From Leucosporidium creatinivorum (taxonomy: Eukaryota > Basidiomycota > Microbotryomycetes > Leucosporidiales > Leucosporidiaceae), in the NCBI GenBank assembly GCA_001600635.1, contig BCKL01000010.1:681573-745572 (forward strand): 64,000 nucleotides of DNA, written 5' to 3'. Under the pieces are notes generated by a model. The model had not been told where the DNA came from. It saw only the letters and a list, made by a program, of their open reading frames with translations, and did not search any database. The translations under genes were made by a program, and so were the position numbers. Positions 32,615 through 54,142 of this stretch are shown here, piece by piece. How positions within the stretch are numbered: the stretch's first letter is position 1; every line of letters starts with the position of its first letter.

Positions 32615-35176
32615 ATGCTCTCTCTACTAAAACTCGCCGCTATCAGCTTGGCTAGCGTCGTCGCTGCTCAAACGTGCTCTACCGACCTCGGAAACGGGCA
32701 GCATATCGGAGGCGCCATCCCCGCCAACCTCTACGAGCCTCTCCAGCACAGGCTCGCCTTCGCTGGAGTCGATGGAATGACTGTTTCGTGGTCGTCGTTT
32801 ACGAAGCTCAAGCAGCCTCAGGTCGCCTGTGAGTGCTGCCATTGACGATGCTGGCCATGCTCGGCGCTGACGTTTTCCTTCGCAGATGGAGAGCATCCTG
32901 GACGTCTCGACATGATCGCCAACTCTACTCTTTCGACCACCTACAACACCTCCCGCACTTGGAACAACCAGTGAGTCTGCGCCCTGCGCCTACGCCGACG
33001 ATCGCTGACCGACGACTTCGTCAACAGCGTCAAGCTTACCAACCTCAAGCCAGCGACCAAGTACTGGTACAAAGTGTCATACACAAACGCGGCCTACGCT
33101 ACCTACCGCCCGTGGGTCGTCTTCTATGACCGTGTTAAGGAGCGCAAAGCTGACCTCTCAATTGGCTGCGCCGGCTCTCGCAGTCTCTACACCTTCACCA
33201 CTGCTCGTGCTCCCGGAGATATGACTCCTTTCTCGATTGCGTCGTTTGCCGAGTGAGCTTGACCTCTGCTCCTGTTTCACCTCGACGTGGCTGGCTCGCT
33301 CAGTTGTTCGGCGACAGCTGACACGGTTTCTAATCCGCCAGTCTCGGTCTCAGTGGGTCACCACTCGCATAGTGTGACATTAAGCCTCGGCACTGACCCT
33401 GTTTGCCTTCTACAGTGGGTCACGACGGCCTCAGCACGAGGACTGGCCCTCTCGGCGGGCCCACGACCTTCCTCGGCGCCAACGAGACCAACACCATCCA
33501 GTCTCTGCTGCAGATGAAAGACACCTATGAGTTCATTGGTCACTACGGAGACATTGGATACGCCGACTACGTACGTTCCCTGCCATCATCTCTGCCTTCG
33601 CAAAGCTGACTCAGCTTCGGCGTCGTCAGTTCCTCAAGGAGTCCATCCAAGGCCTTTTCGGAACCGACAACAAGTCTGTGTGAGTGGCACGAGTTTCCAA
33701 AAGCTCGTCTCTATCTGCTCTCTGACGCCTTCTCCTCTTCGAACAGCCTCCCCGACCGCGAGACCGTCGCCACCCGCTACGAGTCGCTCTCCGAGCAGTT
33801 CTTCGACCAGATGAGCCTCATCACCGCCGAGAAGCCGTGGATGGTCAGCCCTGGTAACCACGAGGGTGAGTCTACCCCTCTGTAGTCTACCGCTGGTGGC
33901 AGCGGCGCAGCTCGGCGATGGCTAATCGTCACTCTTCTCCCTCAGCCAACTGCGACAACGGAGGATACTCGTCCAAGACGGCTCCCAACAACATCACCGC
34001 AGACTACTGCTTCGAGGGACAGACCAACTTTGTGAGTTTGCAACCTTTCTGGCACTCGCCGCGCGGAGCTCGGCGCTCGCTCGGCTCTAACGCGACTCTC
34101 TCGGCAGACATTCTTCATCGAGCACTTCAGGATGCCCTCCTACGAGAGTGGAGGTCGCAACAACTTCTGGTGTGAGTCTGGTGGAGCTCTCAAGCTGCGC
34201 CCAGCGAGCTGACCCTACATTTTGCTAGTTTCGTACGATTACGGGATGACCCACTTCATCTCCCTCGACACCGAAACGGATCTGGGGCATGGACTGGTCG
34301 GTCCCATCGAGAACAAGACCGGAAATTCCAACGGTCCCTTCGGGTTAATGGACGAGCAGCTTCGATGGCTGGTAGCCGACCTCGAAAAGGTCGACCGCGA
34401 GAAAACGCCATGGGTAGTGGTTGGCTTGCACCGTCCTTGGTACGTGAGCGTTGAACCGCCTACATGGCCCGCCTGGCAGGAGGCGTTCGAGAAGATTTTC
34501 TACGACTACGGTAAGCGCAGCGTTCGACGAGGGTCGACGGATACGTCGATCGGACCTGATCATGCTCCTTGCCACCTGCAGAGGTCGATCTGTATACTCA
34601 AGGACACGTGCATGTCTACGAGCGGTGAGTTGTGCTCTTCTGTCCCTCGACAAGCATTGACGAAGCCTTCGCCGAACCTCGGCTGATCCTCCTTCCTCTC
34701 CAGATTCAACCCCAGTTCGTCATCTTCTCACCTACATACTCTGAATGTTTTACTGATACTCTCGCACATTCCTCCCCTGCTCCGCTTCATCTCCTCGCCC
34801 CGCCCTTCCCCGCTCCGCTCTTTGCCACCTCGCTTCCCCTCTCGCCAGTGTTCAACGGTACCGTAGACCCGAACGGCCTGGAGAACCCTCGCGCGCCTTG
34901 GCCCATCATCAACGGCGCTGCTGGACACTACGACGGTCTCGATACGTTCGACGACGTTCGCGCCAACGGCTCGGCGTTCGGAATTGACGAGTGAGTATCG
35001 GCTTGCTTAGCTCGAGCAGCACGGGGGCTGACTTACTGGTGTGCAGCACCTACGGATGGGGTCGCATGACCTTTCACAACCGCACGCACGTCACCTACGA
35101 GTACGTCGCAAGCGGAAACTCGTCGGTCGTCGACTCGGCGACCCTTTACAAGGAACACAAGTTCCACAAGAAGTAG
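32615..35176 (+). CDS. Secreted purple acid phosphatase (metallophosphoesterase)
   Basis: This is an extracellular or wall phosphomonoesterase with a two-metal centre. The N-terminus MLSLLKLAAISLASVVAAQ is a signal peptide. The fibronectin-like N-terminal domain includes LTNLKPATKYWYKV. The metal-binding motifs in order are: DLGLMGHDG, created only when an 11-nt micro-exon (33342-33352) is included; GDIGYADY; GNHEANCDN; VVVGLHRPWYVS; and GHVHVYERF. A second 11-nt exon (34704-34714) joins YERFNP to MFNGTVDPNG. The gene ends GSSVVDSATLYKEHKFHKK... with a Lys-rich C-terminus at 35176. Several NxT/NxS sites (NNIT, NGT, NRT) fit glycosylation. There are about twelve exons and roughly 500-540 residues. 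Phosphate-starvation control is usual for the family but no site was seen. Confidence 0.93.
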
Positions 35177-51623: not shown

Positions 51624-54142
51624 TCAGACGAGAATGGAGCTCATCATGCCCAAGGCCATTGCTCCAACGCTCAGCGTGACCTTCGTCGAGCCACTCGAAG
51701 GTGTGGAGGTCGACTTGGCTGCAGTTTGCGCGTCCGAGGCGGCGGAGGCGGGGATGGAGGATCGCGAGTTTGGCGCCGAGCTGCTTGAGCTGCTGGAGGG
51801 TGAGGAGCCGGGCGATGACGAGGCCGCGCTGGCCGAGGTGGCAGAGGAAGAGTCCTCAGTGGTGGTGCTGGATTGGGACCTGGTCGTGGGCTTGCTGGCG
51901 GAGGAGGCGGCGGTGAGGGTGAGGGATTGGCTGGTGCTCAAAGCGGTGGGAGCGAGGAGGGAAACAGTGGTCGTTCCGGCCATCCATTGGGCGTAGTCGG
52001 GGTAGACGTACTGCCCACCTTGCTCGACGTAGGGTTGAGTATTGTTCATGCAGACGGCGACCTGCGAAGGAGGGAAGTCAGCGAGCAGCCTCGGTCGAGA
52101 GAAGCAGACGACTCACAGGCATGACTCCGCCGGTAAAGGTCTGCTGGATCTTGGGAAGGAATTCCTGCGAAAGCTCCATCGTTCCGGCGTTGATCTCGTG
52201 GGAGAGGACGATGGTTCCGTGCGGGCGCTTGGGCGCGTCGGCGATGATCTCCTCGTAGTTGGCCTCGATCTTGGCCTTGCCTTGGTTGACCCAGTTCCAG
52301 TCGTCCGTATCATCAGCCCAGCTGTAGCGGGGCGAGCGAAGAGACGAACGAGGTAGAAGAGACATGCAAGGGAGGGGAGAAGATGAGAGTCAGCTCTCGG
52401 GATCGGCGAGGACGAGACGAGGACCACACGTACATGACAGTGCGCATACCGAGCTGCTCAGCAATCCAGCGGATGCGGTCGTCCGTGTCTCTGTAGGTCG
52501 CGAAGCTGGCAGTGTCAGCCAAGGGGGCGACGATGAAGGCGCTCGGCGAAACTGACCCGAAGGGTGGGCGCCAGCACTGCACGGTCACTCCGACGACGTC
52601 CTTGATAGCCTTCTTGGTGTAGTAGAGCTGTTAAGAAGTAAAGGCGGTCAGCTCAAGCTCACTTGACCTCTTCGAAGGCGAGTCAACTCACCTCGGCGAA
52701 AGCCTGCTCGTCGGTGAGGGCGGTCATGTCTGCGCGAAAGGCAGCAGTTAGCGGAGAGCAGCACTAGGAAAGAGTTTAGAAATGCTACAGTTATGACTCC
52801 ATCTGTGAGCGGAAGGAAGGAGAGAGAAGGGTTAGCGAGCGAGCAAGGGTGCAGGCGACGGAACGGCTCTTACGTGTGAGCGCAGATCTCGTGACCGTCA
52901 GCCAGTCCACGTTGCGCCTCGAGAGGCCAGTCGACGACATTCGATCCGATGTCTATGTGAGGCGAGAGAAGGGGTCGAGGGGAGGACAGGAGGACGAGGA
53001 AAAGTGAGGTTAGCGGAAGGATCGAGAGTCAGCAACGACTGAGCATGCCATGGTTAGCTGAACGACGTACAGAATAGAGTAGCTTTCTGGTTGATGGACT
53101 CGAGGTAGTCATAGTACTGTGGAAGAGCGTGGAAGGTGTCAGCTCAACGCTCGGCGACTCCGATCGAGACGCGAGCGCGCGACTGACCTCGTTGTGGGTG
53201 CAGTTGGGGCCGTCATCTGTCAAAAAAGCGATGAGACGAGCTAAAGAACAGTGTTGGGGGACAGCACCCACCCAAAGTAAATCCCCAACTCTTCTCAGGA
53301 TTGCACTCGGTGATGTCGATTGGTAGGCCTTCGAGCTTGGGCGTGGTGCAGCCCGTGTTAGTCCACTGGAGTAGAAGAAAAAACAGCACGATGAAGAGGA
53401 CAAGATTGACCGGGAAGGGAGAGGAGGAGGATGAAGAGGGCAGGAGAGAACGGTAATGTGGGCGGGAGAGGAGGAAGGAAGATCCGAAGGTCAGCTTCTT
53501 GCTCATAAGGCGCCGAAGTCACTGCAGAGGCTCGAGCTGAAGTGCAGTAACGTTCATTGAGCTCAGACATCTCCACTCGCCCGACTTGGAGTCGGCATGC
53601 TAGCCCTACTCGCTCTCCGATACCAGCGCCGAACTCTACTCACCCAGCAATCAGGATCCGCGCCATTGTCGTAGGTCACTCCCGTCCAGTCGCCATTAAT
53701 AGTACCGCGAGGAGCAATCTTGGGGATGTTGGGCTGCAGCTGAGCGTAGAGATCCTTGACGTCCTGAGCGATGCCGCTGTGGGGTCGGGGCGCGTGAGCT
53801 TTCTCGTAACTCGGAGGTGCCGAGGTCGAAAGCGTAGGCGCTTGAACGCAGAAGAGCGACAGACTTACCTGCCTTGTAGGTCTGCTACATCCCAGATGGA
53901 AGGGTAGCTCCCGATCTGTACGAGAACGAGCGGAGGTCAGGGTTCGGCGCTTAGGCTCGGCCTTAGCAGGCGCGAGGCTCGAGGCCGCAAAGCTGGCTCA
54001 CCAGTTGCTGCAAAGGCTCAAAATCATAGTAGGTGCACTCTTGGGTCGCGTCCTTGATCTTGGCTTGCTGCTGCCAGTCCCGTCCAGGATGAGCGAAGGC
54101 TGTCGAGGTGAGGGCAAGTAGACCCAGTGTTGTGGCGAGCAT
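51624..54142 (-). CDS. CDA: Chitin deacetylase, secreted and GPI-anchored
   Basis: The enzyme removes acetyl groups from chitin to make chitosan in the cell wall. The signal peptide is MLATTLGLLALTSTAFA. The NodB-type catalytic motifs are present: WGFTLDDGPNCTHNEYYDYL (catalytic and metal Asp); HTWSHNYMTALTDEQ, where the second metal His comes from a 14-nt micro-exon (52789-52802); CWRPPFG; and later DTDDWNW and HGTIVLSHEINAGTMEL. The C-terminus is a long Ser/Thr-rich stalk followed by a hydrophobic end (VTLSVGAMALGMMSSILV), a GPI-anchor signal. About twelve exons give roughly 470-500 residues, the usual size. The N-terminal region (IGSYPSIWDVADLQG, DPDCWWTNTGCTTPKLEGLP) also matches basidiomycete chitin deacetylases. 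The symbol is a family label. Confidence 0.94.

Follow-up and report, generated by a model that had tools for sequence, protein, structure and literature searches.

Within the window (the whole stretch of 64,000 nucleotides analysed here, from Leucosporidium creatinivorum contig BCKL01000010.1), the 14 nucleotides ATGGAGTCATAACT at positions 52789-52802 of the minus strand are most probably a constitutively used micro-exon, at a place where two short introns lie 14 nt apart, in a CE4 chitin deacetylase gene that is intact and rich in introns. We put the probability of this reading at roughly nine in ten. The exon is supported by its sequence, its frame, its match to the family, its recovery when outside queries were aligned, the paralogs that have a counterpart of it and the base rate of short exons in the genome. 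Its splicing in vivo and its constitutive use we infer from the sequence.

The coding region was modelled on the minus strand (51624-54142) as 13 exons separated by 12 GT-AG introns and yields, once spliced, a protein of 463 aa. This protein matched PF01522 (NodB) with an E value of 8.4e-34 and 116.6 bits, above the cut-off of 23.1. It also matched CE4 enzymes in the PDB, the best being 7y51 (1.6e-21), and its TLDDGP and HTWSH segments align with the PDB CE4 rows. With the PF01522 CE4/NodB deacetylases (PDB 7y51, 5lfz, 2y8u, 2iw0) it has in common the NodB domain, DDGP, H[ST]xx[HD] and RPP[FY]G; only the layout of the gene differs, motif 2 being divided among three exons. We call the gene a CE4 chitin deacetylase, a name that rests on family and sequence; the protein would be an active deacetylase, presumably with chitin as substrate. 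According to the PDB alignment and the gene model, the metal triad, which we take to be D140 (motif 1) with H189 and H193 (motif 2), is distributed over exons 5, 7 and 8 (29, 79 and 14 nt).

When the genome was searched in six frames with PF01522, no piece of this gene was among the hits listed at E <= 0.001. The spliced protein nevertheless scores 116.6 bits, which illustrates the problem of searching exon by exon; a gene finder that discards very short exons would predict the enzyme minus its metal site. A scan of viral contigs confirmed no relatives. In the part of the literature on chitin deacetylase (CDA) gene structure and residues that was covered, we found no basidiomycete CDA with described exons, though one may still be in print; the one exon count met with for a CDA is six, in the ascomycete P. 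xanthii, according to the accessible part of its description (PMC8706340).

Exon 8, the 14-nt exon, comprises the end of T190, W191, S192, H193, N194 and the first base of Y195, and its sequence occurs a single time in the window. It is entered in phase 2 and left in phase 1. As the preliminary description had proposed, it is framed by cacag and gtagca, which belong to intron 7 (52803-52873, minus strand, 71 nt, GTAAGA...CACAG) and intron 8 (52730-52788, minus strand, 59 nt, GTAGCA...CGCAG). Both introns carry a CTAAC branch-like site, 28 nt before the end of intron 7 and 17 nt before that of intron 8; the GTAGCA donor of intron 8 is weaker than the donors of the gene's other introns. Upstream, exon 7 (52874-52952, minus strand, 79 nt) ends with ...GCT CAC AC and encodes H189, the first His of motif 2; downstream, exon 9 (52692-52729, minus strand, 38 nt) starts with AC ATG ACC. 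Exon 5 (53188-53216, minus strand, 29 nt) carries D140 of motif 1 (TLDD), and the intron that precedes it splits the D139 codon. In the spliced model the 14-nt exon sits between CACAC and ACATGACC, and CAC AC, ATGGAGTCATAACT and AC ATG read in succession as H189-T-W-S-H193-N-Y-M. Taking a micro-exon to be an internal coding exon of under about 30 nt, in frame between canonical introns, exon 8 is one: 14 nt, GT-AG on both sides, with an open frame. As had been claimed, the second His of H[ST]xx[HD], the CE4 motif, lies on it. The accompanying statement that motif 2 reads HTWSH holds for the window gene and is too narrow for the family, since PDB relatives have HSYSH or HTFDH and the paralog C14 has HTWAH.

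All routes from exon 7 to exon 9 were enumerated by brute force, with introns of at least 35 nt and GT or GC donors. No route with zero or one intron gave H[ST]xx[HD] (155 routes, 12 of them in frame and open); with two introns, 1872 routes were found, 259 in frame and open and 7 bearing the motif. Among these seven, the motif region HTWSHNYMTA (H189 to A198) comes from the 14-nt exon alone. In the other six the middle exon measures 17 to 43 nt and its donor is GC (five routes) or a later GT (one route); these routes gain or lose residues after HTWSHN. The enumeration agrees with the earlier claim that only the 14-nt exon yields the family-matching motif, as it is the sole route that leaves HTWSHNYMTA intact. 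The same exon was recovered with a custom protein-to-genome spliced aligner run at four intron penalties, in 8/8 runs with the bacterial CE4 queries 5lfz and 7y51, which hold no fungal intron information, and in 4/4 runs with the paralog C13 as query. Small exons placed by this aligner are not all right: near motif 1 of the same gene these runs misread the region, with a first exon of 63 or 45 nt, or with a 15-nt plus a 72-nt exon.

A search of the genome (27.7 Mb, 63 contigs) gave at least six genes in which both DDGP and H[ST]xx[HD] occur, a lower bound because only the best candidates are scored. Six CDA genes were modelled, all partially: the window gene, C4, C13, C14 and the tandem pair C26a/C26b; PF01522 fragments on C2 and C21 were left out of the CDA counts. 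The window protein is 61% identical to C4 and 33-40% identical to the other four. In four of the six models the second His of motif 2 lies on a micro-exon, of 14 nt in the window gene, 8 nt in C4 and 16 nt in both C26a and C26b, and each of the three paralog exons was recovered in 12/12 runs with queries that lack them. In C13, motif 2 lies within one exon and an intron follows shortly after; C14 has no intron at its HTWAH motif. Measured by alignment from the point where the codon of the first His begins, the upstream intron falls at 5 nt in the window gene, C26a and C26b alike and at 11 nt, two codons on, in C4. The downstream intron falls at 19 nt in both the window gene and C4, at 21 nt (a shift of 2 nt) in the C26 pair and at 23 nt (a shift of 4 nt) in C13. 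C4 uses the position of a second in-frame acceptor of the window gene (described below), with its donor six bases later. On contig C26 (L032, minus strand) the two tandem CDA genes are 65% identical, and each has, in addition to its 16-nt motif-2 exon, a 7-nt exon, GTGTTCG.

The flanking intron pair is probably old within the CDA family, and we favour inheritance with border shifts over parallel intron gain. On the latter explanation the paralog micro-exons arose separately, through introns gained in parallel at favoured motif-2 sites, and the window exon was not inherited; we consider this unlikely, though a serious contender. The window gene has just one exact intron position in common with the C26 pair, and 10% of random trials produce one shared position or more. 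Moreover, the micro-exon borders differ as listed above, and a tree of the six CDAs with two bacterial rows does not fix how the three gene pairs are ordered. Against separate origins, an exact upstream position combined with a downstream position within 2 nt has P = 0.0008 under random placement, for a pattern chosen post hoc. In addition, the window gene's motif-1 intron, the one preceding exon 5, occupies the same position in the distant paralog C14 and is absent from the close paralog C4; its presence in both the window gene and C14 indicates that old introns persist.

A stronger form of the inheritance we favour, in which the motif-2 micro-exon is ancient in the CDA clan and its borders truly slid along the active-site codons, is doubtful. 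It would involve a shift of the upstream border by 6 nt in C4, giving the 8-nt exon with an acceptor where the window gene has only a cryptic GAG, and a shift of the downstream border by 2 nt in the C26 pair, from phase 1 to phase 0. In the part of the text available, a survey of 28,256 Cryptococcus introns reports no clear case of true sliding (PMC2740785), and a study of basidiomycete alpha-amylases, likewise available in part, gives a few possible cases (PMC3584928). The 6-nt and 2-nt border offsets seen among the paralogs form a small natural series in which intron sliding can be set against loss and regain, and it is in them that the residual interest of the locus lies.

As to how the exon would be spliced, two short introns placed 14 nt apart within the codons of the active-site motif would each, most likely, be recognised as a unit by intron definition, and on this mechanism the 14-nt exon needs no length of its own. 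Intron definition has reportedly been treated in a S. pombe paper that PMC11121469 cites. The exon would be a required piece rather than a switch. As 14 nt cannot be divided into whole codons, a transcript that skips the exon or retains a flanking intron codes for a protein that stops at the motif or beyond it, with predicted products of 236 aa (exon 8 skipped), 190 aa (intron 7 kept) and 207 aa (intron 8 kept); the prediction that loss of the exon breaks the frame was therefore sound. When the exon-skipped form was compared with the PDB, using an approximate query with one H missing, the matches ended near the first His. A second in-frame acceptor six bases into the exon (ATGGAG/TCATAACT; 52797-52802, minus strand) would give HTHNY, so splicing may to some extent be mixed. 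This possible tandem acceptor is the GAG that closes the first six bases of exon 8, and it coincides with the border used by C4.

Regulation of the 14-nt exon is possible. That it is a regulated switch, with skipping or the second acceptor disabling the enzyme under some condition, appears very unlikely, even though skipping truncates the protein, the second acceptor would delete W-S in frame and Trichoderma Xlr2 has a known micro-exon switch (PMC11121469, available in part): the length of the exon is not a multiple of three, and many short exons occur in housekeeping genes of the same genome. Going by the accessible text on Xlr2, what it has in common with the window gene is a micro-exon, in a fungus, on which the function of a metal-binding domain depends; Xlr2 differs in being an ascomycete transcription factor with glucose-dependent inclusion, the window exon being probably constitutive.

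To evaluate a chance origin of the motif, the 144-nt gap was dinucleotide-shuffled 20,000 times and each shuffle scored for an in-frame GT-AG internal exon giving the motif. H[ST][WFY]xH arose in 75/20,000 shuffles; the loose motif H[ST]xx[HD], which arose in 851/20,000 (4%), is by itself weak evidence, and the exact motif is strong evidence, HTW[SA]H arising in 0/20,000. That the 14 bases match by chance and the true mRNA is spliced by another route is thus highly improbable, the loose motif's frequency in shuffles notwithstanding, given the zero count for HTW[SA]H, the failure of every other route to keep the motif region intact, the independent recovery of the exon by spliced alignment and the paralogs with micro-exons at the same motif. 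For HTW[SA]H we reject a chance fit on the route enumeration and the shuffles.

The base rate of short exons was estimated on 12 conserved genes, whose models were built from actin, tubulin, EF-1-alpha and GAPDH queries, further candidate places being left out. In this sample 16/106 internal exons measure 30 nt or less, in 7/12 genes, and five measure 16 nt or less, in 3/12 genes, all tubulins (exons of 5, 12, 15, 5 and 11 nt). In the six partial CDA models the corresponding figures are 10/43 and 6/43. Few of the short exons are multiples of three (3/16 in the 12 genes, 1/10 in the CDA models), in which they are unlike cassette exons. When 12 introns were placed uniformly at random in 1392 nt, 75% of trials contained an internal exon no longer than 14 nt, so that most genes with as many introns for their length would be expected to have one. 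The density of introns agrees with a basidiomycete origin. The genome has many very short exons, and the 14-nt exon is more ordinary than first supposed. The best reading is that dense introns produce the micro-exon, which would be another instance of an already known phenomenon.

These rates bear on a second gene. The preliminary description had regarded as a notable coincidence that two secreted metal enzymes in one window each place a metal ligand on a micro-exon. The other enzyme, encoded on the plus strand, is purple acid phosphatase-like; it was located by a motif scan and confirmed by Pfam matches of its spliced model (PF14008, E 1.3e-17; PF00149, E 1.2e-11). Neither the PF00149 or PF00245 searches of the genome itself nor a Pfam comparison of 30 of the 85 window ORFs (>= 170 aa) had shown it. 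Its 11-nt exon TCTCGGTCTCA (33342-33352, plus strand) gives FADLGLMGHDG at the first metal motif, and the first base of this exon completes the Asp codon of FADLG; in this gene, too, a metal ligand depends on a micro-exon, as had been stated. A second 11-nt exon, ATTCAACCCCA (34704-34714, plus strand), gives ERFNPMFNG, away from the first metal motif. With short exons this frequent, no special cause is needed for one window to hold two metal enzymes whose genes have micro-exons. A metal-site coincidence was rejected on the short exons in tubulins, the 75% obtained by random placement and the second phosphatase 11-nt exon elsewhere in the gene; the base rate takes away what had seemed notable.

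Micro-exons proven by cDNA in basidiomycete yeasts are already published. In the available part of a study of four bglA genes, exons under 30 bp number 3, 2, 10 and 0 and the shortest exons are of 18, 5, 6 and 64 bp, as set by cDNA comparison (PMC9142197). Like the window gene, the bglA genes code for secreted or cell-bound enzymes and contain numerous short introns as well as exons shorter than 30 bp; they differ in belonging to the GH1 family, and that part of the study points out no active-site ligand on their micro-exons. Other basidiomycete examples, from different gene families and again from sources available in part, are the Phanerochaete P450 genes, which have micro-exons down to 6 bp and for which alternative splicing was proposed (PMC1184071), and Cryptococcus, with very short exons down to 1 bp (PMC3990503). 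In the L. creatinivorum genome, one beta-tubulin gene (L051) has three micro-exons in a row, of 5, 12 and 15 nt, with a GC donor after the 5-nt exon; this donor can be likened to the GC-AG introns described beside micro-exons of the bglA genes in the accessible text (PMC9142197).
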